64,000 nucleotides of DNA from Phycomyces nitens (taxonomy: Eukaryota > Mucoromycota > Mucoromycetes > Mucorales > Phycomycetaceae). The stretch lies in NCBI GenBank assembly GCA_022702545.1, contig JAHRBC010000001.1, positions 8,556,001 to 8,620,000 on the forward strand, in the 5' to 3' direction. Made by a program: the position numbers and the translations under genes. Below the pieces are notes generated by a model. It did no database searches. It worked only from the letters and a program-made list of their open reading frames with translations, and was not told where the DNA came from. Shown one piece after another: positions 1 to 64,000 of the stretch (its first letter is position 1; every line of letters starts with the position of its first letter).

Positions 1-817
1 TTTATTTCATCTATATGAGTATAAAACGGACTTGTAGATATACTAATTTTTCTTGACGATATTAATGCTGTATTTATGGCCAATGATGGTAATTGTGTAT
101 TCTGTTGGAGGGTATTCTTCCTTGATGATCGACTTTTGATGTATGTATGAACAGATTAGTCTCCAATGTTATTTAGTATACTTTTTTTTTAAAAAAAATT
201 GAAGAAAATATGTTCGTATAATGTAATACATAAACAAGCCTAAATTTTTACAAACTGGTACACACCAAGTCCATAAAACTTTTTGGTCTTTTTGGGCATA
301 CGCTTCCCAAAATATCACAAGTCAATGTTTGAATAGCTTAGTATTGATCGGTCGGTTAAAACAAAACCTCACCTTTTCTGATGACTTTATATACTTCAAT
401 ACCGAACCTACACCAATGATCCTACTGAATATAAATCTAGTAGAAAATGGACGATATTTTTCAGGCCATTGTTTGGGTTCTGGATTCAGTCTGTCTTGCA
501 AGCAATATCCTGGTAATATTGAAATTGTTGCAGTATCATTCTTTTTGATTTATTGCCCATCCTTTGGCACAGGAAACAAAGTACCGATTGCATAGATTCT
601 CAATATTTGTGCAGAACACCCTTTAGGATATCAACTTTTATTATAGTACAGGCTGTGGTATCCACTCCAGAACTGAGTGAAATACAGACTCTACAACCAA
701 TCTCTGATTGCTCTTTGCTAATAAACATGACAAGTTGGCATCTAAGGAACGGTTACGCATCATTTAAATGTACACTTCGCACTTATACATTAATATCCAA
801 CCATTGCATGACAAGGG
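1..817. other. AT-rich stretch, no supported gene
   Basis: Two short open frames (88 and 96 codons, plus strand, about 330-840) lie here. Neither has a recognisable motif, and a minus-strand reading of about 330-570 looks as protein-like as the plus strand. This may be decayed coding or transposon sequence, but I cannot name it. Confidence 0.4.
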
Positions 818-883
818 CTTTAATTACAAGCGAATTTAAATGATTATTTGTATAATATTATTCAAATTCGCTTGTAATTAAAG
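818..883. repeat. Perfect 20-bp inverted repeat (hairpin)
   Basis: The arm at 818-837 (CTTTAATTACAAGCGAATTT) is exactly complementary to 864-883, with a 26-nt AT-rich loop. It stands just before the LTR-like repeat at 891. It could be a small MITE or a transposon end; no target duplication was seen. Confidence 0.8.
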
Positions 884-890
884 TCTCCAT

Positions 891-1169
891 TGTGGTAATC
901 AAGGGTTTTTGGGGAACTTATAGATACCGTGAGAGTGTTATTTATTAAAGAAAGAATATTATGGTGGTTTATATAGTTATTATCCTAGTTCCCTTGTTCT
1001 ATTAATCTCTATTGTGTAATGGTTGGCTATCACTGTAGTAGTGTGAAGTGTACGTGTGCCTGGTGTGTAGCTGCTCCTGGGATGTTAACTTGCCATGGTC
1101 ATTAGCAAGTAGTAACCGGAGATCGGTTGTGGAGTCTGTATTCCACTCAACTGTGGTGCGTATACCACA
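891..1169 (+). mobile_element. LTR-like interspersed repeat, copy 1
   Basis: The 279-bp element begins TGTGGTA and ends TACCACA, a 7-bp inverted terminal repeat of the TG...CA kind found on retrotransposon LTRs. Related copies lie at 9421, 26999, 27363 and 57440. Shared marks are the GTGAGAGTGTTATTTATT box near the 5' end, a TTTATATAGTTATT TATA-like box, the GTGTGAAGTGTACGTGTG box and ACCGGAGATCGGTTGTGGAG near the 3' end. No internal retroelement genes or clear target duplication are visible, so a solo LTR is the best reading; a non-autonomous element is possible. Confidence 0.6.
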
Positions 1170-1959
1170 TAGAGCATCTTAATTGAAGCGTCATTTATAA
1201 GAGCCAAAGTGTCAGTTATACAGTAAATGTCGGGTTCATATTATTTTTTATTTAAAAGATGCGAACACATCCACATATCTCACTGTAATAATACAAAAGC
1301 AGCAGATATATATCAAACATCATATATCACCTGTACTTTCAATTGACAAAGAATATCAGTTATAAATATTTATATAGACCATTTTATGATCATCCGCTAT
1401 ACATGCTGTTCAATGACAATGCTAATATTATTATGTTTGTAAAAGTTATCATGGCCAAGATGCTACAAAAAAGGGTAAAAGTTCTTTGACTATGATTTCG
1501 ACATTAGATTAGCACATCATGGTAATGACAAGATGTATTGAAATGGCATGTCAAGACCATTTGACATGAAATCTCTAAAACTTGTATATAAATCTTACTG
1601 GAATATATATATATATATATTGTAGCAATAGCCCTGGGGTAAATATTGTATGTCTTATCTTCATGTAATTTTGAAGAGATTTTATTCCTGAATAAAAAGC
1701 GCACGGGCCATTTCAGAGTAACGTACAGAAACTAATCGCCGTTCAAAGAAGTACCACTGTCTTTAAAGATATTCCCACACCGATGAACACCACCTTTCAA
1801 ACTGATACTATACGATTTAAAAGTTCTTTACTTGTTTCTATTGAAAAAGAAGTAGTCTTAACATTAGTTGGGTCAAACTTATTTACATACAAATATGCGC
1901 TTCCATATATGGAGGAGCAATACATTCCCACACTTTGATGACTTCATCACCTGAAAATT

Positions 1960-2054
1960 TTTCTATATCTTAGCGCACTGGGGGCGAGGTTTTGTATTTT
2001 TCTCTTTCCCTCTCTCTTTCCCTTTCATCGCCGCAAACCAATATTTGGATCCAG
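1960..2054 (+). promoter_or_regulatory. Promoter-like segment and first exon of candidate ncRNA (left)
   Basis: A CT-rich tract (about 1998-2028) follows TATATCTTAG and a short G-rich box. It is followed by GGATCCAG joined to a consensus GTAAGT donor at 2055. CT-rich tracts just before the start are common at promoters of genes in this window (for example the NECAP gene). The same arrangement is kept in the right copy. Transcription start is inferred, not seen. Confidence 0.4.
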
Positions 2055-2489
2055 GTAAGTACAAATATCTTTCCATCTCCTCTTCATCCATATTCCATCT
2101 CATACTACACGCCCTTTATAACCATAAAGACGCGTTATTGATGATGGATGGATGTTTTTCACGTTTGGATCACTGTATTTTTGCCACAAGAATTCAAGTT
2201 TTTTCTTCTTATTTTCTGTATTATTAGGAATCTATCCATCTACCACTGTCTGAGCAAGTCAAAATAGTCTTATAATCATGTTCTGAAGGTCCGCTTTGTG
2301 CTCAACAGCCATCCACCCATCGTCATTCTACAAGGAGCGTTTCAAAAAATTGAAACATTTTTCAAGGGCATGTCAAGATGAGAATTGCAAGTCAATGCCA
2401 TTAGATTGCAAGTCAAGATGAAAAGTGACCCCATTCCTTTTCAATAAAAGTTTTCATTGCAAAGAAGCCAACTGCTCTTTCTACTGGTG

Positions 2490-2920
2490 GTTCACTGACT
2501 CCAACATGAGTATGTCAAAGTCTTGATGTCAGACTGCTGGGCTTGATGAAAGATAGTTCTGACTCTTACATGGGCAAAGGTCCACTTTAAGACCCCAGAG
2601 CCTTCTTTCGATAGCTCGTTATCTGGCATCAATAAGACGTTGATAAACTTTTGACAGCAGCTACCAGCCTTGATGAAGACCATCTTCGGTGGCCATTCCC
2701 CTGGACCTAGCATGGAAACACCAAAGTCTTGACTTCGGAAAGCTCAGCTTGATGAGAGATGGTTCCAACTCTTTAGCGGGTGAAATTCCACTAAAGGGCG
2801 CAGACCCATTTTTCAATTGCTAGTCTTTCGGTACCAAGACAACAACTGCGGCCATCCTTGATGAAAACCTTTTCAGATTCTTTCAGGGACAAACAGCCAT
2901 TATGAAGAGTCTGAAATATT
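2490..2920. repeat. Two diverged direct repeats inside the leader
   Basis: The segment from about 2500 and the segment from about 2700 share ordered blocks: CAAAGTCTTGA, CTTGATGA(A/G)AGAT, GGTCCACTTTAAGACCC versus ATTCCACTAAAGGGCGCAGACCC, then CTTGATGAAGACC versus CTTGATGAAAACC. The period is about 200 bp. The same pair is present in the right copy, so the duplication predates the segmental copy. Confidence 0.6.
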
Positions 2921-3540
2921 TTTTCAGTCACACATGTTATGGGGTCAACATGCAAGTCCAGAATTATTGATACCAGACGACTAAAGTTGATCAATATGAC
3001 TTAAGACTCTTTGACATATATATATATATATATATATTAAAGATGTTGAACAGTTGTTCAACTACTAGTGATGCCGTGACAGCACCTGAATACCAATACA
3101 TACCTTTCAAGCCGCCGGACTTCATCATAAAATGGCCGAGACTCTTTGAGGACAAGCGTCCAATATAAAGAAGCCGATTTATTTCTAAGGATCAAGGTGT
3201 TAGCCTACCAGTAGAGACCATGTGGTGTAAGTTTTCAGGTTGGTGGTAGACATCGACGAAAATACATGTATGCTAAGACTAATATTTTTCTTGTGTACAT
3301 TTGTAGGTTTAGTGGTCAGTTTTCATCCGCATGTCCAGGCCAGGCAGACGATCAGGATGGTTCAAGACGGGGTTGGTGGAGGGTTGCAGCTAAGTATGAA
3401 TGTGTTGCTATTAAGCCGTGTTTTTTTTTTAGCTCTAGATCCAGTGCCAGTTTTTACTAGCATGTCCAGTCCTAGTCAATCGTTCCAGTTGGTTGGGAAG
3501 AATCGGGGATGGTGGTGGGCTCCAAGGTAGGTAGAAAGTA

Positions 3541-6500
3541 GATTAGAAATTGTAGTGTAGATATTGTTTAGAGTAGCCGTCCGAGTAGAGTAGAAAGGTA
3601 AGTCCATCCCAATCAAACTTGACAGCACTGTTAACAATGACTCCACTCTATGTAGTAGCGTAGCCCGTCCCGTAGTTTAGTCGTCCGAGTAGTTTAGCAG
3701 GTAAGTCAATTGAATGCGATCAAAGACACACTGCTAACTTGGATTTCAGTTTAGCTGTAGCTTAGTTCCGGTTGGTAAGAATCGGGGATGGTGGTGGGCT
3801 CCAATTTAGCTAGAAAATAAATTAGAAATTGTAGTATAGATATTGCTTAGAGTAGCCGTCCGAGTAGAATAGAAAGGTAAGTCTATCCCAATCAAACTTG
3901 ACAGCACTGCTAACAATGCCTCCACTCTATATAGTAGTGTAGCCGTCAGAGTAGTTTAGCTGTCCGAGTAGTTTAGCAGGTAAGTTAATCCCAATCAAAC
4001 TTGTCAGCACTGCTAACAATGACTCCACTCTATATAGTAGCGTAGCCGTCCGAGTAGTTTAGCTGTCCGAGTAGTTTAGCAGGTAAGTACATCCCAATCA
4101 AACTTGACAAGCACTGTTAACAATGACTCCACTCTATTATAGTAGCGTAGCCGTCCGAGTAGTTTAGCCGTCCGAGTAGTTTAGCAGGTAAGTGTATTGA
4201 ATGCGATCAAAGACACACTGCTAACTTGGATTTTAGTTTAGCTGTAGCTTAGTTCCGGTTGGTAAGAATCGGGGATGGTGGTGGGCTCCAACTTAGCTAG
4301 AAAATAGATTAGAAATTGTAGTATAGATATTGCTTAGAGTAGTCGTCCGAGTAGAGTAGAAAGGTAAGTCGATCCAAATCAAACTTGACAAGCATTGCTA
4401 ACAATGACTCCACTCTATATAGTAGCGTAGCCGTCCGAGTAGTTTAGCTGTCCGAGTAGTTTAGCAGGTAAGTTAATCCCAATCAAACTTGTCAGCACTG
4501 CTAACAATGACTCCACTCTATATAGTAGTTTAGCCGTCCGAGTAGATTAGCAGGTAAGTCCATCCCAGTCAAACTTGACAAACATTGCTAACAATGACTC
4601 CACTGTATATAGTAGTGTAGCCGTCCGAGTAGTTTAGCTGTCCGAGTAGTTTAGCAGGTAAGTCCATCCCAATCAAACTTGACAAACATTGCTAACAAGG
4701 CCTTCACTCTATATAGTAGTGTAGCCGTCCAAGTAGTTTAGTCGTCCGAGTAGTTTAGCAGGTAAGTGAATTGAATGCAATCAAGGACACATTGCTAACT
4801 TGGATTTCAGTTAAGCTGTAGCTTAGTTCCGGTTGGTAAGAATCGGGGATGGTGGTGGGCTCCAACTTAGCTAGAAAATAGATTAGAAATTGTAGTATAG
4901 ATATTGCTTAGAGTAGCCGTCCGAGTAGAATAGAAAGGTAAGTCTATCCCAATCAAACTTGACAGCACTGCTAACAATGCCTCCACTCCATATAGTAGTG
5001 TAGCCGTCCGAGTAATTTAGCTGTCCGAGTAGATTAGCAGGTAAGTCCATCCCAGTCAAACTTGACAAACATTGCTAACAATGACTTTAATCTATTATAG
5101 TAGTGTACACCGTCCCGTAGTTTAGCAGGTAAGTCCATCCCAATCAAACTTGACAAGCACTGCTAACAATGACTCCACTCTATTATAGTAGCGTAGACCG
5201 TCCCGTAGTTTAGCTGTCCGAGTAGTTTAGCAGGTAAGTCCATCCCAATCAAACTTGACAGCACTGTTAACAATGACTCCACTCTATATAGTAGCGTAGC
5301 CCGTCCCGTAGTTTAGTCGTCCGAGTAGTTTAGCAGGTAAGTCAATTGAATGCGATCAAAGACACACTGCTAACTTGGATTTCAGTTTAGCTGTAGCTTA
5401 GTTCCGGTTGGTAAGAATCGGGGATGGTGGTGGGCTCCAACTTAGCTAGAAAATAGATTAGAAATTGTAGTATAGATATTGCTTAGAGTAGCCGTCCGAG
5501 TAGAGTAGAAAGGTAAGTCGATCCAAATCAAACTTGACAAGCATTGCTAACAATGACTCCACTCTATATAGTAGCGTAGCCGTCCGAGTAGTTTAGCTGT
5601 CCGAGTAGTTTAGCAGGTAAGTTAATCCCAATCAAACTTGTCAGCACTGCTAACAATGACTCCACTCTATATAGTAGTTTAGCCGTCCGAGTAGATTAGC
5701 AGGTAAGTCCATCCCAGTCAAACTTGACAAACATTGCTAACAATGACTCCACTCCATATAGTAGCGTAGCCGTCCGAGTAGTTTAGCTGTCCGAGTAGTT
5801 TAGCAGGTAAGTTCATCCCAATCAAACTTGACAAGCACTGCTAACAATGAATCCACTCTATATAGTAGTGTAGCCGTCCAAGTAGTTTAGTCGTCCGAGT
5901 AGCTTAGCAGGTAAGTGAATTGAATGCGATCAAGGATACACTGCTAACTTGGATTTCAGTTTAGTTGTAGCTTAGTTCCGGTTGGTAAGAATCGGGGATG
6001 GTGGTGGGCTCCAACTTAGCTAGAAAATAGATTAGAAACTGTAGTTTAGATATTGCTTAGAGTAGCTGTCCGAGTAGAGTAGAAAGGTAAGTCCATCCAA
6101 ATCAAACTTGACAGCACTGCTAACAATGACTCCACTCTATATAGTAGCGTAGCCGTCCGAGTAGTTTAGCTGTCCGAGTAGTTTAGCAGGTAAGTCTATC
6201 CCAATCAAATTTGACAGCACTGCTAACAATGACTTCACCCTATTATAGTAGCGTAGAACGTCCCGTAGTTTAGCCGTCCGAGTAGTTTAGCAGGTAAGTC
6301 AATTGAATGCGATCAAAGACACACTGCTAACTTGGATTTCAGTTTAGTTGTAGATTAGTTCCGGTTGGTAAGAATCGGGGATGGTGGTGGGCTCCAAGTT
6401 AGCTAGAAAATAGATTAGAAACTGTAGTTTAGATATTGCTTAGAGTAGCTGTCCGAGTAGAGTAGAAAGGTAAGTCCATCCAAATCAAACTTGACAACAC

Positions 6501-7650
6501 TGTTAACAATGACTTCACTTTATATAGTAGCGTAGCCCGTCCCGTAGTTTAGTCGTCCGAGTAGATTAGCAGGTAAGTGAATTGAATGCGATCAAAGACA
6601 CACTGCTAACTTGGATTTCAGTTTACCTGTAGCTTAGTTCCGGTTGGTAAGAATCGGGGATGGTGGTGGGCTCCAACTTAGCTAGAAAATAGATTAGAAA
6701 TTGTAGTATAAATATTGCTTAGAGTAGCCGTCCGAGTAGAATAGAAAGGTAAGTCTATCCCAATCAAACTTGACAGCACTGCTAACAATGCCTCCACTCC
6801 ATATAGTAGTGTAGCCGTCCGAGTAATTTAGCTGTCCGAGTAGATTGGCAGGTAAGTCCATCCCAGTCAAACTTGACAAACATTGCTAACAATGACTCTA
6901 CTCTATTATAGTAGTGTACACCGTCCCGTAGTTTAGCAGGTATGTCCATCCCAATCAAACTTGACAAACATTACTAACAAGGCCTCCACTCTATATAGTA
7001 GCGTAGCCCGTCCCGTAGTTTAGTCGTCCGAGTAGTTTAGCAGGTAAGTCAATTGAATGCGATCAAAGACACACTGCTAACTTGGATTTCAGTTTAGTTG
7101 TAGCTTAGTTCCGGTTGGTAAGAATCGGGGATGGTGGTGGGCTCCAAGGTAGGTGGAATGTATATTAGAAATTGTAGTGTAGATATTAATTAGAGTAGTC
7201 GTCCGAGTAGAGTAGAAAGGTAAGTTGATCACACTCAAAGCTGTCCTTATTTCTAATAATGTAGTTATTATGTAGTGTATCATAGATTATCTTTAGTGTA
7301 GCCGTCCAAGTATATTAGAAATGTAAGTGAATTGATCGCGATGAATACGGAAAGACTTACATGGATTACATATTCTGTAGTAACTTAGTTCCGGTTGGCA
7401 AGATCGGGGATGGTGGTGGGCTCCAAGGTAAGTGGAATGTATATTAGAAATTGATATTTTAATAATAGTAAGAACGGGTGTCCGATTAGAGTAGAACTGT
7501 AAGTATGTCCAACCAAAACTTGCCTGCACTGCTAACAATGCTTTCATTTTGTATACTATCAACGTTTGGTCTTATTGGAGTTGTCCCATTTAGTTAAGGC
7601 AAGTACATCTTATTCAACCTGGTTTGCACCACTAACAATGTTTTCAGATT
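3541..7650 (+). repeat. Tandem array of intron-exon cassettes (left)
   Basis: Two unit types alternate. The S unit is a 58-nt intron-like block (GTAAGT...CTGCTAAC...TATATAG) plus a 45-nt exon-like block made of two copies of GTCCGAGTAGTTTAGC. The L unit is a 49-nt intron-like block (GTAAGTGAATTG...CTGCTAAC...GATTTCAG) plus a 127-nt exon-like block carrying a G-rich core (GGGGATGGTGGTGGGC). G-rich cores start their shared GGTTGG at 3491, 3770, 4257, 4831, 5406, 5980, 6363, 6642, 7113 and 7393. Spacings are about 279-283, 383, 471-487 and 574, that is, one L unit plus one to four S units. A block of about 574 bp is repeated three times in a row (4257-5980). Confidence 0.95.
7200..7650 (+). other. 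Degenerate distal edge of the left array
   Basis: Here the unit bodies diverge strongly, yet donor and branch signals stay. There are GTAAGT motifs at 7220, 7323, 7428 and 7499. A CTGCTAAC follows the last, and a GC-AG type candidate intron runs from 7599 (GCAAGT) with CTAAC at 7632 to TTTTCAG at 7647. This is the segment that best separates conserved signals from conserved sequence. Confidence 0.65.
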
Positions 7651-8079
7651 ATATAGTATCTTTTGTGTTTGGTTGTATGGTTGTCTGAATTCAGTTTTAA
7701 TCACCTTAAAAGAACTCTAGTATTTCGACACACCTAGGATTGATTGCTTGTACGTATGGAAATAGAATAAATGTTTTATCTCCTAGAAAAACTTTGAAAA
7801 GATGTGCTTTCATATTTTCAACGCTAAGCGTTTCAACTGCGAAAATAGCGATAGGGTACAAGCGTTAATTGTACAATGATAAATAAATTATGTATGTATT
7901 TATTAATATTATCAAGAGCCTAATATTTGGTATCAATGTGTTTAGTGTAAACCACTATACGTTATCAATTTTGTACTCGTCCCACTAAACCTTTGGTATG
8001 ATTCAATGCCCATTATCCCACCTTATTTCATTATGACTTCAAATGTTCCATAGTTTTAAAGATGTCCTTTGTTTTACTC
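7651..8079. other. Intergenic, nothing recognised
   Basis: AT-rich sequence between the array edge and the transposase relic. No open frame, repeat or RNA signal that I can support. Confidence 0.5.
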
Positions 8080-8940
8080 ATTGTCCCCACGAACACTCAT
8101 TAAATATCCTCAAGCAAAGCTAGTCAATACTTTGAACAGGATTGTAGCGGTGCCGTTTAATCGGATGTCTTTCTCTGCACCACTTTTCAGTCGAGCTGTC
8201 TTTCTTGAATATTAACATTATATCCTGTTCGTCTGAAGGGTGTTTGATTTTGGGAAGGAAGTTCCGGTTTAAAGTGTTGATACACTCAATCTTGGTTTAC
8301 AGTGCCTTGAATGAAGATCAAAGAACCACAACCACCTGCCCAGAAACAACCAATATCATAGCGCCATCCTTGCCTCCCTTTGTTCCATAAAAGGTATGTT
8401 CTTCTTTGGACATTTTTCCAACTTGTCTAATGGCTTTAGCACGGCTATTGTTGCCTTTGATTGTAAATTGGGTGTTATCGGATTACACTACACTTTTACA
8501 TTTGTCATTCTATTTAATTGACATTATCCTTGACCCATTGCAGTCTTTGTTGGTTGCTTCTTTCTGTCAAGGATGATTTTTAGGCTGCAATGTAAGAACA
8601 AAAGCCAATGTTTTTGAGATGACGGATTACTGTTCCTCTGTAGATGAAATTCTCCATCTCTACTGTTAATCTCAGCTGATTATAATTAGCTAATGGATTC
8701 TTCCATGTTAATCACAAAATGCCTCTCAGTACTCGTGCTATTTATTTTCTGTCATCCAGGGCTCTTTCCAGGAAGAGACGATCTAGTTTTTTTTTTTTTT
8801 TTTTTTGAATCTCTCAATGATCTTGACAGTTGACAAACTCATTTTGGCCAATGCTGAAATCTTTGTTATACCAATATTAGCTAAATACAGGTGCATAATT
8901 CCACTATACTTGTGCTCATTGAGCTTATAATAAGGGCCAC
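8080..8940 (-). pseudogene. Decayed Tc1/mariner-type transposase
   Basis: Conceptual minus-strand translation with frameshifts and stops gives, in order, blocks typical of Tc1/mariner transposases. First is a helix-turn-helix-like stretch (ITKISALAKMSLSTVKIIER, about 8880-8810). Next is a second DNA-binding block with NPLANYNQLRL and GTVIRHLKNIGF. Then comes RLQWVKDNVN (about 8555-8525), matching the family's RL.WA..H..W block. After it is a degenerate GGKDGAMILVVSG strand, then NRNFLPKIKH and a region ending NPVQSID, resembling the SPDLNPIE block. Many stops and loss of the catalytic acidic residues show it is dead. No terminal inverted repeats were identified. A poly-T/A run (8788-8806) interrupts it. 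Confidence 0.7.
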
Positions 8941-9420
8941 GAGCAGTTTCTTATGCTAATGGTACGTTGATGTTTGTATTGATTAGTAAAAAGAATAAGA
9001 AATATAATATTTTTATTTTTCAAAGAAACAAACATTTTTTATGATCTTTTGCGAGGCTCAATCTTTCTTGTGCCTGTTTTTATATGTCAAACCATTAAAA
9101 CTCTGACTGTAACAGGCACTTAAAAAAAACAATCTATAAACTAATTCTAAGCTTAATATCGATGCTCTACATCCATGCATCTTATTCAGCCATAAATCTA
9201 TAGTAATTAGCGTATAACAATACAGCTAGATATAGCCTCTTGAGTATAAGGTGGTAGCCACCTTTGAAAATCAAGTTTGGCTTTTAAGGAACACAGACCG
9301 AATGCTGACACTCTAGTAGGTTACAAAGTTTATAATTCCAAATTTAACCAGTACTTTATATAGGTATTGTTTGTTTTTTTTTGGCCTGGAATCTTATATA
9401 GTGTATAGATTGGATAGGCT
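8941..9420. other. Intergenic, nothing recognised
   Basis: AT-rich flank between the transposase relic and an LTR-like repeat. It may hold the far end of the decayed transposon, but no inverted repeat could be matched. Confidence 0.45.
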
Positions 9421-9680
9421 TGTTAGTATCTTGTGAGGAACTTATAGAGAGGTGTTGTTTATTAAACAAAAAATGTCATGGTGGTTTATATAGTTATTAT
9501 TCTAGTCACTTTGTACTTTTTAGGCTCTATTGTTTAATAGACAGTTATCACTATACTAGTGTATATGCGTATGGTTTGTAACTATTAAGATGTTAAATTG
9601 CCATGCTCATTAGCAAAGAGTAACCGGAGATCGGTCGTAGAGTTTGTGTTTCGCTCAGCTACAGTTTGTATAATACACCA
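9421..9680 (+). mobile_element. LTR-like interspersed repeat, copy 2 (old)
   Basis: This copy begins TGTTAGTATCTTGTGAGGAAC and ends near TACACCA. It aligns over its whole length with the copies at 891 and 57440 but has more substitutions, so it is an older insertion. The TATA-like TTTATATAGTTATT and the ACCGGAGATCGGTCGT blocks are retained. Confidence 0.6.
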
Positions 9681-19600: not shown

Positions 19601-19860
19601 CATGTCTACAAGACACCGTGAGAACATTGATGATTAGCTCTTTTGACCATGCACTATGGACGGTCAATAAAAAAAAATAGAAGTCAAGAGGCCCATCTTG
19701 AAGGCTTGACAAGATATATCAATACTAGGTCAGTAATAGTGTGGGTCAAGATATAGAGCATAATCATCTATCTATATATATATATACTAACTTTGCAGAA
19801 GAATCATATAATTCTTATCCTCTCAAGGGCTCCTCTCTTTTTTAAAAAAAAATAGCCCTT
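13659..19860. other. 6-kb gene-poor AT-rich region
   Basis: No open frame above about 90 codons, and none carries a recognisable motif. Small frames at 13927 (+), 16868 (-), 17117 (+), 17483 (-) and 18864 (-) look random. A stretch near 19530-19640 hints weakly at a decayed F-box/LRR relative on the minus strand, but not enough to call. Otherwise poly-A/T runs and short TA tracts. Decayed transposons would be the likely content. Confidence 0.5.
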
Positions 19861-19884
19861 GTATAATACAATATATACGACTCT
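19861..19884 (+). promoter_or_regulatory. TATA-like segment before F-box copy 1
   Basis: GTATAATACAATATATACG followed by a CT-rich stretch sits about 30-45 bp before the upstream ATG at 19905. If this is the core promoter, translation from either ATG is possible. Confidence 0.3.
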
Positions 19885-20048
19885 TCTCTTGGCTCATTGT
19901 AGATATGTCCCAAGTTGCCCTTATTACCTATACTGTGTTCCCGTTCACAGGTTTGGGTCACATATCTTTATTTAACTCTTGTCCTCCCAAAAAAAGAAAC
20001 TATCTTGACGCTTTTTCTTTCGAAACAAGTTTTGTCATTTGCTTCATC

Positions 20049-21869
20049 ATGTTAGCATCCGAATTGCCATTTGAAATCCTTTGCCACATTGCCAGCTTTG
20101 TCGGGGCGGACAAGAAATCAGACTATGCCCTGGTGTGCAAAGCGTGGAGAATACCCTTTGAAGAGTCAATGTGGAGAATAATGAATATATACACAAAAAA
20201 GAAGCTTGAAGACGCCTGCAATACATCACTAACCTATCAATCGCACCAAAAAGCACATGGGCACCTTGTACGGGAGCTGACCCTGTCAAAACGACTGCAC
20301 ACCTCTGATAAACAGCTCCGTATCCTCCAGGACCGCTTTCCTAACTTGAGGAGTCTATGCATATACGAGGAAAGTGTGGATCATATTGATTTTGGAGTGA
20401 CAGCAGACTGGAGCATCTGGGGATCGTTGACGACTCTCAAGATATGTATGGAAGGGTTCGATATCGAGGTTGACGTAAAAAAGTTCCTTGGACTGTTGTC
20501 ATTCTTGCCTTGCCTTCGACGACTAGAGTACATAAAGGCGCTTTGTGGCCTGTCATCTGTCTTTACAATCGATGATTTTGAGACACTCCATAGACATTTG
20601 CCTCAGCTGAGACACCTGTCGACAGCAATGGATCTTGACAACATATCGGCAAACGACATCCAAACAATCGAACATACCGATCCTGCAAGTAGATTGACAA
20701 CAGCAGAGATTAGGGTTGATCATATGGATCTTCGGTGGCTTTGGTACTTTAGTCAAAAGTATCCAAACATACACACTCTGGAATGGAAGATTATCAATAC
20801 CCAGCACAATGACGATTCATCAGATAAACTGTTGTCAATGTTTCCTGACATTTCCTGTGCATTTCCTCGCCTAACAAAGGTCATCATGAAGGGAGAATCC
20901 GAAAAGATACCTGTACACCTGGCGTTCTGGGAGCTTATTTATCGGTTCCGTGCCCCAATCAAGCATTTGGTGTATTACCTGGCCGACAGAGGCAATGATC
21001 CGGAATCATTGGAGCACCTTATCAAGAGGTGTATGAGTGCATGCTCAAGAACCCTAGAAACCCTTTTGCTCCTGTGTGGGGCAGAAATGAGTGATCCCTT
21101 GATGATTCCAAATGCACTTGGTATCTGCACCAGCCTTCAGAGTCTTAATCTAGAGGTTCGTCAAAGTTCGGTTGCATTGGATGTCATATTTGATAACTGC
21201 AGTCTACTCAGGAAACTAAAGGTGACCAGCCAAAGGGTCTCCACAAGGTCCACCAATGGCCCTACACATGGACTGATATTCTTGGAGATCAGGATGGCAA
21301 CTGTCAGTTCACTATTGTTCCAGTACATCTCCTTGCGTTGCCAGAACCTTGCGTATATGCGACTGGCTAGTCTGAATGCCTTTGGACCTCTGCTACCAAA
21401 TGGAATCCTGAGCCTGGACATGGAACATACATGCTTTGAGAGACTGGAGCTCAACTGTGTGAGGTTCTATGCCTCACCAGATGACTGGACCATAGACACA
21501 GCCATCAATTTCATGGCACTTTCTCAGAGTTCTCCTTGTGATAAAGCACCACCACTCACATGGTTTCATCTGCACCGACCTTCACGCAGTGGTTATCAGA
21601 GAGATCAGATCCGGGCACTAAAAAACGCCGAAGCAAAGCACTCTAAAAGGTTCTTTCGTGCCTTTGAACGCAAGATCATCAAGAACCCTGATAGTCAAAG
21701 GGGAGTCCAGCGATCTAACAATGGGCAGGTTCTCAAACACTTGTGGAAAAAGGATCTTCCTCTTGGATATGCAAGGCTAAACTGTAGATATTTAAAGAGC
21801 TTTGTGGTGGATACCAACATGTCCTACAGCAATCCCCTGTGGGATAATATCTATGAATCCTTGCATTAG
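20049..21869 (+). CDS. F-box/LRR-like protein, tandem copy 1
   Basis: Intronless gene, 606 aa from the ATG at 20049. An upstream in-frame ATG at 19905 would add 48 residues, but the other two tandem copies also begin a few residues before the motif, so I prefer the shorter form. The F-box is at residues about 5-42 (LPFEILCHIASF...LVCKAWRIPFEESMW). F-box proteins bind Skp1 and present substrates to an SCF ubiquitin ligase. The rest has irregular leucine-rich, LRR-like repeats (for example LETLLLLCGAEMSD, LQSLNLEV, LRRLEYI), likely the substrate-binding part. The C-terminal landmark WFHLH and the ending LGYARLNCRYLKS are shared with the neighbours. First of three same-strand paralogues. Substrate unknown. 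A (TAA)n tract follows the stop. Confidence 0.85.
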   Translation: MLASELPFEILCHIASFVGADKKSDYALVCKAWRIPFEESMWRIMNIYTKKKLEDACNTSLTYQSHQKAHGHLVRELTLSKRLHTSDKQLRILQDRFPNLRSLCIYEESVDHIDFGVTADWSIWGSLTTLKICMEGFDIEVDVKKFLGLLSFLPCLRRLEYIKALCGLSSVFTIDDFETLHRHLPQLRHLSTAMDLDNISANDIQTIEHTDPASRLTTAEIRVDHMDLRWLWYFSQKYPNIHTLEWKIINTQHNDDSSDKLLSMFPDISCAFPRLTKVIMKGESEKIPVHLAFWELIYRFRAPIKHLVYYLADRGNDPESLEHLIKRCMSACSRTLETLLLLCGAEMSDPLMIPNALGICTSLQSLNLEVRQSSVALDVIFDNCSLLRKLKVTSQRVSTRSTNGPTHGLIFLEIRMATVSSLLFQYISLRCQNLAYMRLASLNAFGPLLPNGILSLDMEHTCFERLELNCVRFYASPDDWTIDTAINFMALSQSSPCDKAPPLTWFHLHRPSRSGYQRDQIRALKNAEAKHSKRFFRAFERKIIKNPDSQRGVQRSNNGQVLKHLWKKDLPLGYARLNCRYLKSFVVDTNMSYSNPLWDNIYESLH

Positions 21870-21960
21870 ATAATAATAATAATAATTGTAATAATAATCG
21901 TAATAATCTTAATAGTAATAGTAATTTTAATAATAATTTTAATAATAAAAAAAGTTACAT
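21870..21960. repeat. Impure (TAA)n tract
   Basis: TAATAATAATAA with scattered substitutions directly after the stop of F-box copy 1. A similar tract sits at 26634-26666 after copy 3, which fits amplification of whole gene units. Confidence 0.7.
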
Positions 21961-22274
21961 GTGATTATGCCACCTACTCTTCATATCAAATAAATAAATT
22001 AAATAAAATAAAAAAGGGGGGTTTCATATGTAGAGTCCTGTCAACAGACACATTAATCTCTTGGGGATCTCTGCAGCCAATATTCTCAAACGGCTGCAGC
22101 CAACCTTGTTTTGAGAGCAGTTTTGGTCGTTTGTTTCTCACGGTGACCAAGCTGCCTTGGGGATTGGTCTATGATAACACATTCATTCGTATCTTGTCCT
22201 CCCTTGAACTTGTTGCTTTTAACCTTGTCTGCCAAGAGAAAATAATATCATATTATCCTTTTTTTTTAACCATT

Positions 22275-24083
22275 ATGCCCAACTCTGAATTGCCATTCGA
22301 AATCCTCATTTACATTGCAAGCTTCCTCTCAACCAATGACAGACTCTCATGCATCACTACCTGCAAGACATGGGAACCAGCATTCCAAGAGACCTTGTGG
22401 AACACAGTCGATATTCGCCACAAAGGGAAACTAAACGCTATTCACAACCTACTTGTCTCCAAGGGCGACTCTATTTACAGCCAAGGAAAACATGTCCGTA
22501 AACTTGTGTTTGCCGTGGGCCTCAAGGTCAACAGTGACCAGCTCTGCTCTTTTCAGAAACACTGCCAAAAGATCCAACATTTGGTTATTCGAGAAGGCGG
22601 CCTAAGCAAGGATTACTTTTTAAAGAGGCCAGACTGGAAACTGTGGGGATCACTAACATCTCTGGAGATCTGTCTGTCAGGACTGAACCTCGTCAATGAA
22701 CCCAAGGAGCTTAATTATATCCTGTCTCATCTACCTCGTCTTAGGCGGCTAGACTACGTAGATGCAATGATGGGACCAAGACCGGTTTACAAACTAGACG
22801 ACTTTGAGACCCTACACGCTCATCTACCCCAACTGGAGCATCTATCCATGGCTGTCTGGCTTGATTCTATACCAACAAAAGATCTGTCTCTCATCCAAGC
22901 AACTCCTCCAGCGGCCAGTCTGACTACCATGAAGCTCTATGTGGACAATATGGACATCTGGTGGACATATTATATGGCTCAAAAGTATCCCAACATCAGT
23001 ACCCTGGAGATGAAAATCGACACTGAATTCCGCAGGCCAAATGACTTTCGTCAAAGTGCAACACTCGAACTCTTTAATATTTCGCGTGCATTTCCCTGCC
23101 TCGAGAACACAGTTATAACATGTAGACCAAACACAGAATGGTCCCAGCTTACCCTATGGAATCTTCTTTGCCGATTCGATACACCCCAAAGACACCTAAA
23201 GTACGACTTGCACTCCTGCTATGACATGTCTGGATCCCTAGAGAGAACCGTCTCAGCAAGCATTCAATCCTGTACAAAGACCCTTGAATCGTTTCATATC
23301 TCTAGCTACATTGACTTCTCTGACCTCTGCAAGGTCTCAAAGGTGCTCGGCTTCTGTCCTAACTTGGTTGACTTGCAAATAACTTCCTACATCACCGTCG
23401 TTGGATTGGATGTGTTTCTGGATCATTGTTTGGTCCTAAAGAGCCTAACCCTTGGCGTCAGCATGCTGTCTGTAATAGAGTCGCCATTAGATTATTCCAC
23501 TCCACACGGATTGCAGTCTCTGAAGATTATTAGGGCAACAACCAACAGGTGTATATTGTATTATGTCTCGCGCCGTTGCAAGTCTTTGAGTTACATGCGC
23601 TTGGCCGACGTAAACATCTTTGGAGTGGTCAATCAAGAGACTGGAAGACTTTTGATTGATATGTCCTGTACTAGTTTCAAGTATCTCGAGCTTATTCGCG
23701 TGTCGTTTTATTCATCATCTGTTGAGGATCGAGAACGATCTCTCAAATTCTTGGTTCTCTCGTATCCAAACCACTCGCTGCCTTTGGGTGGAATTGATAA
23801 TCTAGAAAATTCATTATGGTTTCATATGTACAGCAGTCTAAAGACAAGACAAGACAATAACGAGATGAGGGTTATGAATGAAGAGGAGATTAGGTTTTCG
23901 GAAGCCTACTATTCAGACTTTAAGCAAAGGAGTGAACAAGTGGTTGACAACCAACAAGAGCGTTTCTACAGGCTCAAGTCACCCTCGAACAACCGGCTCG
24001 ATTGGACAAGATCGCTCTCACTTGGTTATTGCTCAATAAGGTGTGCGTCTCTGGAAAGATATAGTGTCAGCCTGGAAGCTTAA
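22275..24083 (+). CDS. F-box/LRR-like protein, tandem copy 2
   Basis: Intronless, 602 aa from the first ATG before the F-box (MPNSELPFEIL); the open frame reaches further upstream but only from a non-ATG codon. F-box residues about 5-42 (LPFEILIYIASFLS...CITTCKTWEPAFQETLW). It then shows the same irregular LRR-like body as copies 1 and 3, with shared blocks DNMDIWW, YMAQKYPNI, CKSLSYMRLADVN and a WFHMY landmark near the end. It begins about 400 bp after the stop of copy 1. Most similar by eye to copy 3. Expected role: substrate receptor of an SCF ubiquitin ligase through Skp1 binding; the target is unknown. Confidence 0.85.
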   Translation: MPNSELPFEILIYIASFLSTNDRLSCITTCKTWEPAFQETLWNTVDIRHKGKLNAIHNLLVSKGDSIYSQGKHVRKLVFAVGLKVNSDQLCSFQKHCQKIQHLVIREGGLSKDYFLKRPDWKLWGSLTSLEICLSGLNLVNEPKELNYILSHLPRLRRLDYVDAMMGPRPVYKLDDFETLHAHLPQLEHLSMAVWLDSIPTKDLSLIQATPPAASLTTMKLYVDNMDIWWTYYMAQKYPNISTLEMKIDTEFRRPNDFRQSATLELFNISRAFPCLENTVITCRPNTEWSQLTLWNLLCRFDTPQRHLKYDLHSCYDMSGSLERTVSASIQSCTKTLESFHISSYIDFSDLCKVSKVLGFCPNLVDLQITSYITVVGLDVFLDHCLVLKSLTLGVSMLSVIESPLDYSTPHGLQSLKIIRATTNRCILYYVSRRCKSLSYMRLADVNIFGVVNQETGRLLIDMSCTSFKYLELIRVSFYSSSVEDRERSLKFLVLSYPNHSLPLGGIDNLENSLWFHMYSSLKTRQDNNEMRVMNEEEIRFSEAYYSDFKQRSEQVVDNQQERFYRLKSPSNNRLDWTRSLSLGYCSIRCASLERYSVSLEA

Positions 24084-24131
24084 GACGCACTGCTTTTGGA
24101 TGGCTATTTGACATGGCGTGAATATATTACA

Positions 24132-24585
24132 TTATTTAAAGTGATGGTAATCTAGGGCTGTGGCATAACTGCGCCCATCCTTGTCAAGGAGAACAAGGGT
24201 CGATTGTAGTCTGATATTAAAAAAGCCAAAGAACTCGAATTTGACCTGTGAAATATAGTATCGACTGATGGCCATGGTAAATTGGTTTGCACATTGGAAT
24301 CCTCTTGAAGAAACCAGTCAAACTTTAGAATGGGTCCATTGATCGCATGGTATTGAAATCATGCACACCACAAAACATGTCGTTGGACCATTTGGGGTGC
24401 TTAAATGTGCTGATGTCGGCAAGAACCTGCGTCCCAGGGATGTCTTGTTCAAATACAAGGCTACTCCAACTACTGTTATGAAATTCAACCATCATTTCCT
24501 GGGGGTACCTTTTGATTGAGATGCAAAAGATGAATTGATGGGTTGTTGGCTTGGCATTATATAATAGTCGAGTGCTGGCAGCCAT
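24132..24585 (-). CDS. Small hypothetical protein, two exons
   Basis: Not recognised. A phase-consistent model gives 128 aa: exon 1 24585-24369, intron 24302-24368 (donor GTGTGC, acceptor AAGAG, TTCTAAAG-like branch), exon 2 24301-24132. The joined reading passes from SNDMFCG to FQCANQFTMAIS without a stop and ends RSYATALDYHHFK. It is rich in aromatic residues with no signal peptide or membrane helix. It lies on the opposite strand inside the roughly 620-bp gap between F-box copies 2 and 3, so it would share that gap with the copy-3 promoter. The atypical donor weakens the model. It could instead be a decayed gene fragment. Confidence 0.45.
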
Positions 24586-24705
24586 GTATTACTATCATTT
24601 TTTTAGGCTTTGGGTTCGGCAAAAGATCCACCCAAACCTATTCTTGTTTGCCTTGATAAATTCTGTCAACATATGCAGGCACCGGTCGTCACTTTTTCTT
24701 CCTTA

Positions 24706-57709: not shown

Positions 57710-60080
57710 TAGAGCATCTTAATTGAAGCGTCGTTTATAAGAGCCGAAGTGTCAGTTATACACCAAATGTCGGGTTCATATTATTTTTTATTTAAAAGAT
57801 GCTATCACATCCATATATCTCACTGTAATAATACAAAAGCAGCAGATATATATCAAACATCATATATCACCTGTACTTTCAATTGACAAAGAATATCAGT
57901 TATATATATTTATATAGACCATTTTATGATCATCCGCTATACATGCTGTTCAATGACAATGCTAATATTATTATGTTTGTAAAGGTTATCATGGCCAAGA
58001 TGCTACAAAAAAGGGTAAAAGTTCTTTGACTATGATTTCGACATTAGATTAGCACATCATGGTAATGACAAGATGTATTGAAATGGCATGTCAAGACCGT
58101 TTGACATGAAATCTCTAAAGCTTGTATATAAATCTTACTGGAATATATATATATATATTGTAGCAGTAGCCCTGGGGTAAATATTGTATGTCTTATCTTC
58201 ATGTAATTTTGAAGAGATTTTATTCCTGAATAAAAAGCGCACGGGCCATTTCAGAGTAACGTACAGAAACTAATCGCCGTTCAAAGAAGTACCACTGTCT
58301 TTAAAGATATTCCCACACCGATGAACACCACCTTTCAAACTGATACTATACGATTTAAAAGTTCTTTACTTGTTTACTTGTTTCTATTGAAAAAGAAGTA
58401 GTCTTAACATTAGTTCGGTCAAACTTATTTACATACAAATATGCGCTTCCATATATGGAGGAGCAATACATTCCCACACTTTGATGACTTCATCACCTGA
58501 AAATTTTTCTATATCTTAGCGCACTGGGGGCGAGGTTTTGTATTTTTCTCTTTCCCTCTCTCTTTCCCTTTCATCGCCGCAAACCAATATTTGGATCCAG
58601 GTAAGTACAAATATCTTTCCATCTCCTCTTCATCCATATTCCATCTCATACTACACGCCCTTTATAACCATAAAGACGCGTTATTGATGATGGATGGATG
58701 TTTTTCACGTTTGGATCACTGTATTTTTGCCACAAGAATTCAAATTTCTTCTTCTTATTTTCTGTATTATTAGGAATCTATCCATCTACCACTGTCTGAG
58801 CAAGTCAAAATGGTCTTATAATCATGTTCTGAAGGTCCGCTTTGTGCTCAACAGCCATCCACCCATCGTCATTCTACAAGGAGCGTTTCAAAAAATTGAA
58901 ACATTTTTCAAGGGCATGTCAAGATGAGAATTGCAAGTCAATGCCATTAGATTGCAAGTCAAGATGAAAAGTGACCCCATTCCTTTTCAATAAAAGTTTT
59001 CATTGCAAAGAAGCCAACTGCTCTTTCTACTGGTGGTTCACTGACTCCAACATGAGTATGTCAAAGTCTTGATGTCAGACTGCTGGGCTTGATGAAAGAT
59101 AGTTCTGACACTTACATGGGCAAAGGTCCACTTTAAGACCCCAGAGCCTTCTTTCGATAGCTCGTTATCTGGCATCAATAAGACGTTGATAAACTTTTGA
59201 CAGCAGCTACCAGTCTTGATGAAGACCGTCTTCGGTGGCCATTCCCCTGGACCTAGCATGGAAACACCAAAGTCTTGACTTCGGAAAGCTCAGCTTGATG
59301 AAATATGGTTCCAACTCTTTAGCGGGTGAAATTCCACTAAAGGGCGCAGACCCATTTTTTAATTGCTAGTCTTTCGGTACCAAGGCAACAACTGCGGCAA
59401 TCCTTGATGAAAACCTTTTCAGACTCTTTCAGGGACAAACAGCCATTATGAAGAGTCTGAAATGTTTTTCAGTCACACATGTTATGGTACCAACATGCAA
59501 GTCAAGAATTAATGATACCAGACGGCTAGAGTTGATCAATATGACTTGAAGCTCTTTGACATATATATATATATATATTAAAGATGCTGAACAGTTGTTC
59601 AAACACAAGTGATGCGGTGACAGCACCTGAATACCAATACATACCTTTCAAGCCGCCGGACTTCATCATAAAATGGTCGAAACTCTTTCAGGATAAACGT
59701 CCAATATAAAGATACCGATTCATTTCTAAGGATCAAGGTGTTAAGCCTGCCAGTAGAGACCATGTGGTGTAAGTTTTCAGGTTGGTGGTAGACATCGACG
59801 AAAATAAATGTATGCTAAGACTAATATTTTTCTTGTGTACATTTGTAGGTTTACTGGTCAGTTTTCATCCGCATGTCCAGGCCAGGCAGACTATCAGGAT
59901 GGTTCAAGACGGGGTTGGTGGAGGGTTGTAAGCTAAGTATGAATGTGTTGCTGTTAATCGGTTTTGTTTAGTTCTAGATCCAGTGCCAGTTTTCACTAGT
60001 ATGCCCAGTCCTAGTCAGTCGTTTCAGTTGGTTGGGAAGAATCGGGGATGGTGGTGGGCTCCAAGGTAGGTATAAAGTAG
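57710..60080 (+). repeat. Right copy of duplicated leader segment
   Basis: Direct copy of 1170-3540 with sparse substitutions and short indels, such as an extra CTTGTTTA near 58370 and a shorter TA run near 59560. Candidate introns at 58601-58773 and 59769-59848 keep exactly the lengths of their left counterparts (173 and 80 nt). Confidence 0.9.
58500..58600 (+). promoter_or_regulatory. Promoter-like segment of candidate ncRNA (right)
   Basis: Same CT-rich tract, G-rich box and GGATCCAG/GTAAGT junction as at 1960-2054, identical over most of its length. Confidence 0.4.
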
Positions 60081-63000
60081 ATTAGAAATTGTAGTGTAGA
60101 TATTGCTTAGAGTAGCCGTCCGAGTAGAGTAGAAAGGTAAGTCCATCCCAATCAAACTTGACAAACACTGCTAACAATGACTTCACTTTATATAGTAGCG
60201 TAGCCCGTCCCGTAGTTTAGTCGTCCGAGTAGATTAGCAGGTAAGTGAATTGAATGCGATCAAAGACACACTGCTAACTTGGATTTTAGTTTAGCTGTAG
60301 CTTAGTTCCGGTTGGTAAGAATCGGGGATGGTGGTGGGCTCCAACTTAGCTAGAAAATAGATTAGAAACTGTAGTGTAGATAATGCTTAAAGTAGCCGTC
60401 CGAGTAGAATAGAAAGGTAAGTCCATCCCAATCACACTTGACAGCACTGTTAACAATGACTCCACTCTATTATAGTAGCGTAGCCGTCCGAGTAGTTTAG
60501 CTGTCCGAGTAGTTTAGCAGGTAATTCCATCCCAGTCAAACTTGACAACACTGCTAACAATGCCTTCACTCTATATAGTAGTGTAGCCGTCCGAGTAGTT
60601 TAGTCGTCCGAGTAGTTTAGTCGTCCGAGTAGCTTAGCAGGTAAGTGAATTGAATGCGATCAAAGACACACTGCTAACTTGGATTTCAGTTTAGTTGTAG
60701 CTTAGTTCCGGTTGGTAAGAATCAAGGATGGTGGTGGGCTCCAAGTTAGCTAGAAAATATATTAGAAACTGTAGTTTAGATATTGCTTAGAGTAGCTGTC
60801 CGAGTAGAGTAGAAAGGTAAGTCCATCCCAATCAAACTTGACAGCACTGTTAACAATGACTCCACTCTATATAGTAGCGTAGCCGTCCGAGTAGTTTAGC
60901 TGTCCGAGTAGTTTAGCAGGTAAGTCCATCCCAATCAAACTTGACAAACACTGCTAACAATGACTTCACTTTATATAGTAGCGTAGCCCGTCCCGTAGTT
61001 TAGTCGTCCGAGTAGATTAGCAGGTAAGTGAATTGAATGCGATCAAAGACACACTGCTAACTTGGATTTCAGTTTAGTTGTAGCTTAGTTCCGGTTGGTA
61101 AGAATCGGGGATGGTGGTGGGCTCCAACTTAGCTAGAAAATAGATTAGAAACTGTAGTGTAGATAATGCTTAAAGTAGCCGTCCGAGTAGAATAGAAAGG
61201 TAAGTCTATCCCAATCAAACTTGACAGCACTGTTAACAATGACTCCACTCTATATAGTAGCGTAGCCGTCCGAGTAGTTTAGCTGTCCGAGTAGTTTAGC
61301 AGGTAAGTTCATCCCAATCAAACTTGTCAGCACTGCTAACAATGACTCCACTCTTTATAGTAGTTTAGCCGTCCGAGTAGATTAGCAGGTAAGTCCATCC
61401 CAGTCAAACTTGACAAACATTGCTAACAATGACTCCACTCTATATAGTAGTTTAGCCGTCCGAGTAGTTTAGCTGTCCGAGTAGTTTAGCAGGTAATTCC
61501 ATCCCAATCAAACTTGACAACACTGCTAACAATGACTCCACTCTATATAGTAGCGTAGCCGTCCGAGTAGTTTAGCTGTCCGAGTAGCTTAGCAGGTAAG
61601 TTTATCCCAATCAAACTTGACAGCACTGCTAACAATGACTCCACTCTATATAGTAGCGTAGCCCGTCCCGTAGTTTAGTCGTCCGAGTAGATTAGCAGGT
61701 AAGTCAATTGAATGCGATCAAAGACACACTGCTAACTTGGATTTTAGTTTAGCTGTAGCTTAGTTCCGGTTGGTAAGAATCGGGGATGGTGGTGGGCTCC
61801 AACTTAGCTAGAAAATAGATTAGAAATTATAGTATAGATATTGCTTAGAGTAGCCGTCCGAGTAGAATAGAAAGGTAAGTATATCCCAATCAAACTTGAC
61901 AGCACTGCTAACAATGACTCCACTCTATATAGTAGTGTAGCCGTCCGAGTAGTTTAGCTGTCCGAGTAGTTTAGCAGGTAAGTTCATCCCAATCAAACTT
62001 GTCAGCACTGCTAACAATGACTCCACTCTTTATAGTAGTTTAGCCGTCCGAGTAGATTAGCAGGTAAGTCCATCCCAGTCAAACTTGACAAACATTGCTA
62101 ACAATGACTCCACTCTATATAGTAGTTTAGCCGTCCGAGTAGTTTAGCTGTCCGAGTAGTTTAGCAGGTAATTCCATCCCAATCAAACTTGACAACACTG
62201 CTAACAATGCCTTCACTCTATATAGTAGTGTAGCCGTCCGAGTAGTTTAGTCGTCCGAGTAGCTTAGCAGGTAAGTGAATTGAATGCGATCAAGGATACA
62301 CTGCTAACTTGGATTTCAGTTTAGTTGTAGCTTAGTTCCGGTTGGTAAGAATCGGGGATGGTGGTGGGCTCCAACTTAGCTAGAAAATAGATTAGAAACT
62401 GTAGTGTAGATAATGCTTAAAGTAGCTGTCCGAGTAGAATAGAAAGGTAAGTCCATCCCAATCACACTTGACAGCACTGTTAACAATGACTCCACTCTAT
62501 TATAGTAGCGTAGCCGTCCGAGTAGTTTAGCTGTCCGAGTAGTTTAGCAGGTAATTCCATCCCAGTCAAACTTGACAACACTGCTAACAATGCCTTCACT
62601 CTATATAGTAGTGTAGCCGTCCGAGTAGTTTAGTCGTCCGAGTAGCTTAGCAGGTAAGTGAATTGAATGCGATCAAAGACACACTGCTAACTTGGATTTC
62701 AGTTTAGTTGTAGCTTAGTTCCGGTTGGTAAGAATCGAGGATGGTGGTGGGCTCCAAGTTAGCTAGAAAATAGATTAGAAACTGTAGTTTAGATATTGCT
62801 TAGAGTAGCTGTCCGAGTAGAGTAGAAAGGTAAGTCCATCCCAATCAAACTTGACAGCACTGCTAACAATGACTCCACTCTATATAGTAGCGTAGCCGTC
62901 CGAGTAGTTTAGCTGTCCGAGTAGTTTAGCAGGTAAGTCCATCCCAATCAAACTTGACAAACACTGCTAACAATGACTTCACTTTATATAGTAGCGTAGC

Positions 63001-64000
63001 CCGTCCCGTAGTTTAGTCGTCCGAGTAGCTTATCAGGTAAGTGAATTGAATGCGATCAAGGATACACTGCTAACTTGGATTTCAGTTTAGTTGTAGCTTA
63101 GTTCCGGTTGGTAAGAATTGGGGATGGTGGTGGGCTCCAAGTTAGCTAGAAAATAGATTAGAAACTGTAGTTTAGATATTGCTTAGAGTAGCTGTCCGAG
63201 TAGAATAGAAAGGTAAGTCCATCCCAATCAAACTTGACAGCACTGCTAACAATGACTCCACTCTATATAGTAGTGTAGCCGTCCGAGTAGTTTAGCTGTC
63301 CGAGTAGTTTAGCAGGTAAGTTTATCCCAATCAAACTTGACAGCACTGCTAACAATGACTCCACTCTATATAGTAGCGTAGCCGTCCGAGTAGTTTAGCT
63401 GTCCGAGTAGCTTAGCAGGTAAGTTTATCCCAATCAAACTTGACAGCACTGCTAACAATGACTCCACTCTATATAGTAGCGTAGCCCGTCCCGTAGTTTA
63501 GTCGTCCGAGTAGTTTAGCAGGTAAGTTTATCCCAATCAAACTTGACAGCACTGCTAACAATGACTCCACTCTATATAGTAGCGTAGCCCGTCCCGTAGT
63601 TTAGTCGTCCGAGTAGATTAGCAGGTAAGTGAATTGAATGCGATCAAAGATACACTGCTAACTTGGATTTCAGTTTAGTTGTAGCTTAGTTCCGGTTGGT
63701 AAGAATCCGGGATGGTGGTGGGCTCCAACTTAGCTAGAAAATAGATTAGAAACTGTAGTGTAGATAATGTTTAAAGTAGCCGTCCGAGTAGAATAGAAAG
63801 GTAAGTCCATCCCAATCACACTTGACAGCACTGTTAACAATGACTCCACTCTATTATAGTAGCGTAGCCGTCCGAGTAGTTTAGCTGTCCGAGTAGTTTA
63901 GCAGGTAAGTTCATCCCAATCAAACTTGTCAGCACTGCTAACAATGACTCCACTCTTTATAGTAGTTTAGCCGTCCGAGTAGATTAGCAGGTAAGTCCAT
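58576..64000 (+). ncRNA. Candidate multi-intron non-coding transcript (right copy, runs off the window)
   Basis: Same layout as the left candidate: leader exon, two leader introns with intact GT and AG, then the cassette array. Several donors here are GTAATT instead of GTAAGT (for example near 60522, 61494 and 62169), still usable by the fungal spliceosome. No reading frame stays open. Its 3' end lies outside the window. Transcription is inferred only. Confidence 0.4.
60081..64000 (+). repeat. Tandem array of intron-exon cassettes (right, incomplete)
   Basis: Same S and L units as the left array. L-unit cores start at 60030, 60310, 60710, 61093, 61768, 62340, 62723, 63106 and 63694, giving spacings of 280, 400, 383, 675, 572, 383, 383 and 588. 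The order of spacings differs from the left copy, so the two arrays have rearranged independently by unequal exchange or conversion while unit sequences stayed alike. Confidence 0.95.

Follow-up and report, generated by a model that had tools for sequence, protein, structure and literature searches.

The window analysed here, a stretch of 64,000 nucleotides from Phycomyces nitens, carries tandem arrays in which each repeat unit looks like a miniature intron followed by a short exon. This raises the question of whether the repeats are real introns and, if so, what kind of gene would be assembled from them.

Structure of the array

The first-pass annotation had read the units as tandem pairs of intron and exon, which is borne out by the parse of the first array, W1, into 34 consecutive introns (Table 1). 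Their donors are GTAAGT in 32 of 34 cases, with GTATGT and GCAAGT found once each, their branch sites are CTAAC-like (CTGCTAAC, CTGTTAAC, TTGCTAAC and related forms), and all end in AG. Intron lengths are 49 (n=9), 56 (n=1), 58 (n=11), 59 (n=8), 60 (n=4) and 82 nt (n=1), while the 33 exons between them measure 45 (n=18), 127 (n=8) or 28 nt (n=4), the rest being 18, 47 and 118 nt. Exon lengths of 28, 45 and 62 nt follow 11+17n, which reflects a 17-nt repeat inside the exons of the S type. The spacing from the branch-site adenine to the intron end, which had also been read from the sequence, was recovered as 12 nt in L introns and 21–22 nt in regular S introns. In some L exons GTAGGT or GTAAGT stands just past a G-rich core (at 7428 and equivalent positions), a possible alternative donor whose use would shorten the 127-nt exon to about 53 nt.

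The pattern GTAAGT-N20-40-CTAAC-N5-25-AG has 49 matches in the window, whereas shuffled sequences gave a mean of 0.62 and none of 100 shuffles reached 49. Forty-eight of these matches lie inside W1 and a second array, W2, and the remaining one falls on the minus strand at the end of an ORF for an OPT transporter, i.e. an ORF whose best match is 95 % identical and from Phycomyces nitens, the best P. blakesleeanus match being 78 % identical.

Table 1. Positions of the array units and associated repeats in the window
Feature	Position	Strand	Remarks
LTR-like dispersed repeat, partial	924..1169	+	left edge of the W1 duplicated unit
Conserved upstream region, copy W1	1170..3159	+	
TATA box CCAATATAAAG	3160..3170	+	every base common to 20–24 of 24 loci
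Intron 1	3227..3306	+	GTAAGT, branch CTAAT, TAG; aligned in 24 loci
H-exon G-rich core	3356..3386	+	
Possible 39-nt intron, H exon to first L exon	3394..3432	+	GTATGA...TAG; by eye, uncertain as it has no standard branch site
G-rich cores of W1 L exons	starts ~3507, 3786, 4273, 4847, 5422	+	
G-rich cores of W1 L exons, continued	starts ~5996, 6379, 6658, 7129, 7408	+	
Array W1	3598..7647	+	34 introns alternating with mainly 28-, 45- and 127-nt exons
Diverged 3' edge introns of W1	7220..7647	+	signals largely kept, bodies diverge
GC-AG intron closing W1	7599..7647	+	counterparts at seven other array loci
Conserved 3' end block	7648..7790	+	array-locus homology stops between ~7729 and ~7792
Further places of the 284-bp repeat	27101–27362, 27364–27556, 9417–9652		
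Further place of the 284-bp repeat	654–847	-	
Full LTR-like repeat copy at W2	57426–57709		
Conserved upstream region, copy W2	57710..59700	+	
W2 TATA box	59701..59711	+	
W2 intron 1	59769..59848	+	
Array W2	60137..64000	+	32 introns parsed within the window, 52 overall

A gene-like unit dispersed across the genome

W1 sits in a larger gene-like unit that extends from the TATA box at about 3160 to about 7790. The second array, W2, starts near 60137 and runs beyond the window end to about G000:C1:8622.3 kb. Neither this array nor the larger unit, nor the spread of the family over the genome, had been noticed in the first-pass annotation. The two are direct duplicates, with 95.3 % identity over window positions 924–4079 and 98.7 % over 2576 nt downstream, and their arrays span 4.05 kb (W1) and 6.20 kb (W2). 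Since the flanks are near-identical but the arrays hold 34 versus 52 introns, the repeat number has been altered since the duplication, and module number thus changes quickly.

We searched the whole genome (G000; 49.0 Mb in 11 contigs). A 521-nt query from the head of W1 identified 24 loci at which the match is roughly 350 nt or longer, and 24 dispersed loci could be aligned over a common 5' region comprising the TATA box, intron 1 and what is termed the H exon, which contains a G-rich core; this head alignment used 24 of 25 loci, C4_894p being left out as partial. More than 1300 nt of the W1 upstream stretch 1200–2900 were matched at 22 loci, W1 and W2 counted in. As long upstream matches across loci are mostly 86–98 % identical, much of the family similarity reflects recent duplication. 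The mean pairwise identity across the 24 loci is 94.2 % in the TATA box, compared with 86.5 % upstream.

A 300-nt S/L stretch gave at least 118 genome matches, all of them within ten family loci. A profile search, which covered 11 of 25 loci, the other 14 having lacked S/L matches genome-wide, found about 290 introns in ten loci, i.e. 188 of type S and 102 of type L. A stricter parse of six large arrays yielded 34, 52, 59, 29, 39 and 50 introns, counts from which some introns are missing, exons of 221–230 nt being left in four arrays. S introns from one locus resemble each other just slightly more than they resemble those from other loci; for this intron type the arrays have thus been homogenised to a modest degree. 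Several members without S/L matches have two to four H modules at 128–131 nt spacing, with a related G-rich core. Considering that S/L modules multiplied in ten loci and H modules elsewhere, two distinct core-bearing modules have multiplied within a single family. One member without an S/L match, at G000:C10:2043401-2044700, carries four tandem H modules spaced by 129–131 nt.

A 284-bp LTR-like repeat with TG...CA ends, which recurs elsewhere in the genome, has an edge that coincides with the left edge of at least seven family loci (40 of 518 candidate places scored, 1001-nt query), and this coincidence suggests a mobile or recombination origin. A common right end was sought among the family loci and not found. 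At some other loci the repeat adjoins the head in inverted orientation. Words resembling GGCACGACGTTTC and related sequence occur in the right flanks of the locus at G000:C5:7266801-7268500 and of the C7 locus at 3.71 Mb, mostly inverted relative to each other.

It is conceivable that such arrays are a selfish or neutral tandem repeat in an old, dispersed family of genes or mobile elements, in which unequal exchange multiplies the modules, the RNA itself has no task and splicing is kept only since the transcript would be harmed or blocked by unspliced arrays. The strong differences in module number among loci, even between W1 and W2, the LTR-like repeat at the left edges and the absence of an S/L match in 14 of 24 loci would all agree with this. 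However, in 24 loci the core and the TATA box are better conserved than the sequence around them, and two different modules were multiplied within the family; we consider this reading less likely, though well worth keeping in mind.

Several other features were observed in the window. It also has F-box, CotH, G-beta and MIZ zinc-finger ORFs; look-alike groups of plus-strand ORFs lie at 19812–26562 and 53065–56752, and both scanned ORFs of these groups gave F-box matches, one of them below the curated cut-off. The CotH-domain ORF (32514–33872, minus strand) adjoins another ORF at 34124–34600. A dispersed repeat downstream of W1 (8195–8383) has at least 29 other places in the genome with 71–78 % identity, and a tandem array of a 43-bp unit in 5.7 copies is located at 30182–30421.

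Constraint on the splice signals

Inert arrays should lose their splice signals at the background rate, and signals that are kept while the remaining sequence diverges therefore point to constraint on splicing. We defined diverged array introns as those with a non-signal identity below 80 %. In 23 diverged S introns, 268/299 signal positions were kept compared with 655/1035 other positions (p=1.6e-20), and in four diverged L introns 42/52 compared with 92/144 (p=0.025). Because diverged copies are not independent, nine introns were chosen by judgement, one per homology class, of which four come from the locus C4_2841p, including one mildly diverged L intron (30/36). In these nine, signals were kept at 102/117 positions versus 245/378 elsewhere (p=1.6e-6), or at 89/99 versus 245/378 when donor and branch site were taken alone (p=2.9e-7). 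When the mask of donor and branch site was slid over 24 offsets, the best value was 0.828, against 0.899 at the true position.

The first intron of the 24 dispersed loci gives mean pairwise identities of 94.6 % at the donor, 95.1 % at the branch site and 97.2 % at the acceptor versus 87.8 % in the rest of the intron, and a terminal GC-AG intron is found at the equivalent place in eight array loci. Host coding introns are of similar size: among 28 automatically proposed candidates in 9000–59000, ten were judged real by eye, and these measure 47–64 nt, five having exactly GTAAGT. The array introns are thus normal in size for the host. Taken together, the conservation of signals in diverged copies and in the first intron upholds the earlier claim that these are real introns, a conclusion that the constraint supports well. 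Such conservation records past constraint and is no proof of present expression.

Weakened and lost signals were also seen. GT is missing at the intron-1 donor in two of the 24 loci; GAAAGT stands for GTAAGT at C1_8172p and C5_7268m, where the donor positions are our own placement, C4_2841p has no TAG acceptor, and C5_7829p and C5_7561p carry the donor variants GTAACT and GTAAAT, respectively. A C7 array has GTAACT donors and CTAAA branch sites, and W2 has four GTAATT donors within the window.

If the introns themselves did the work, by titrating splicing factors or by yielding small lariats, as the first-pass annotation had also proposed, one would expect what is seen in the ten loci, i.e. 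a large number of introns with mostly strong signals that are conserved in diverged copies. Beyond the signals, however, nothing speaks for it. Off-signal, the bodies of the 22 most diverged S copies are 53–71 % identical, so that no specific intron product is kept there; the edge intron bodies diverge, and the better-conserved part of the diverged L exons is the G-rich core. In addition, a few hundred introns would be few compared with the whole genome unless expression were extreme. A sink or lariat source is therefore unlikely.

Exon content

The core pattern CGGGGWTGGTGGWGGGYT has 125 matches in the genome versus 0 for the reversed control, and the 100 listed places among them are all family loci or head fragments. 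Likewise, the H core with up to three mismatches occurs at 33 genome sites, each a family locus or head fragment. Across 24 loci the H core has a mean pairwise identity of 94.3 %, compared with 85.6 % for the H exon upstream of it, and in seven diverged L exons, which are not independent copies, the core was kept at 215/245 positions versus 442/602 (p=3.1e-6).

The density of UAG in the exons is 90–112 per kb versus 22–25 in single-base shuffles, an approximately four-fold enrichment. Conservation is lower in the UAG columns (143/221) than in the remaining exon columns (299/381, p=2.7e-4), which argues against a UAG sponge or UAG as a selected site. Predicted RNA folds did not outperform those of shuffled sequences (z −0.40, −0.48 and +1.06).

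Repeated, dispersed and similar units that look transcribed could also be precursors of small RNAs that feed RNA silencing, a process known in Mucorales, but a 35-nt L-exon pattern that matches exactly 16 times in W1 and W2 does so always on the plus strand, and the conservation of the core would be left unexplained, which makes this quite improbable.

Coding potential and known RNA classes

A 99-codon stop-free run in the W1 head (3231–3530) and a possible 76-residue spliced frame in the same region could be taken to indicate a protein-coding gene, with the arrays as coding exons or as a 3' untranslated region behind a short frame. However, the H exon is 80 nt long in 16 loci, 81 nt in seven and 78 nt in one, so that indels in the head break a shared reading frame, and TAG follows directly after ATG in two loci, C5_5537m and C5_495p. 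The 76-residue frame, tested as one candidate, had no protein match at E up to 10 in a search in which only proteins of about 42–133 residues were visible, and the longest stop-free run in six spliced arrays is 51 codons. A coding role in any of these forms therefore appears extremely improbable, and for the plus strand protein coding was rejected, given the lack of a conserved frame together with the short stop-free runs of the arrays. On the minus strand, no closed ORF of 150 codons or more was found in either array, and none above 92 codons in 900–8400.

Searches for snoRNAs returned 0 Rfam matches at the gathering score in the 64-kb window, and at E up to 5 the region 2900–4300 gave only chance-level miRNA matches. 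Content of snoRNA, tRNA or ribozyme type was rejected, the searches having given no match. An apparent resemblance of H-exon stretches to the A and B boxes of tRNAs was dropped, as it was unsupported by ARAGORN or Rfam. Classical satellites form long homogeneous arrays, usually centromeric or subtelomeric, without gene structure. Arrays of 4–8 kb within units that share a 5' region and a 3' block on several contigs do not belong to this class.

Comparison with known systems

The initial statement that no described satellite is built in this way was too strong: SNHG14, the mammalian host gene of SNORD115 and SNORD116, is described in PMC11608373 as a noncoding gene with 29 and 48 tandem introns. 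It is nearest in architecture, sharing tandem units of intron plus exon in what would here be, judged from sequence, a noncoding transcript. While each SNHG14 intron carries a snoRNA, the array introns here are bare, 49–60 nt long and without an Rfam match at threshold.

With regard to possible modes of action, PMC7151548 reports that the tandem 280-nt units of Drosophila hsr-omega, extending over about 10 kb, help to recruit RNA-binding proteins, and that the fission yeast meiRNA carries a short motif in 25 or more copies, which sequester Mmi1. Both are candidates for a similar way of working, the former as a repeat-rich noncoding RNA, the latter as a fungal noncoding RNA with many copies of one short motif, and may be the nearest working likenesses of an array RNA. 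In contrast to hsr-omega, every unit here includes an intron and the family is spread over 24 loci; the meiRNA motif, in turn, is not the core found here. To our knowledge, the hsr-omega repeat unit is not itself an intron plus exon, and we know of no intron-exon array in meiRNA. Repeats of 156 nt in the lncRNA Firre bind one protein, again according to PMC7151548. Firre resembles the present family in having repeats in a noncoding RNA. It has fewer repeats (16 in mouse and 8 in human) and longer introns. Introner elements are near-identical introns that spread in many copies into many unrelated genes; here, in contrast, the S/L-stretch matches, of which there are at least 118, are confined to ten loci of one family.

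We do not assign the array family to the SNHG14, hsr-omega or meiRNA kind. On sequence, it has one trait of architectural repeat RNAs, which are nuclear and bind a protein in many copies: many copies of a short element in a putatively noncoding transcript, with 125 core matches and no conserved frame. In titles and abstract openings of the literature, subscription literature lying mostly outside, neither this family nor any fungal satellite built of tandem introns and exons was described.

A proposed spliced repeat RNA

On balance, we lean towards the view that the arrays are the bodies of dispersed, TATA-driven, spliced noncoding RNA genes, present at 24 loci, with a mature RNA that would act as a multivalent scaffold or decoy. 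This retains the core of the first-pass proposal of a massively spliced noncoding RNA, which remains the best reading given the signal constraint and the lack of a frame, whereas transcription, splicing and function are what we infer from these features. RNA polymerase II would make a transcript carrying the array of 4–8 kb, from which the spliceosome would take out up to about 60 introns, leaving a mature array RNA of about 2–4.5 kb with one core per L exon on a UAG-rich background. With its many G-rich cores this RNA would probably be a multivalent scaffold, and the core array could serve as scaffold or decoy for a core-binding protein. Unequal exchange would alter the number of modules, and the spliced design would allow modules to be added without breaking RNA processing.

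More tentatively, it is tempting to speculate on a class of spliced satellites, in which the tandem-duplicated unit of a multi-locus noncoding RNA family pairs a minimal intron with a noncoding exon, selection acts on spliceability, and the spliceosome joins tens of small exons into a multivalent polymer with a valence tuned by unequal exchange.

Were the arrays not expressed, they would represent splice signals dragged along in tandem repeats and a warning for gene annotation. The roughly 290 similar natural introns, with their graded changes in donor and branch site, offer a ready test of what the spliceosome needs in short introns. If the arrays are expressed, they would constitute a fungal repeat RNA family outside yeast, with the number of repeats in a noncoding RNA determined by the addition of whole intron-exon modules, in a host whose introns are otherwise ordinary and short.
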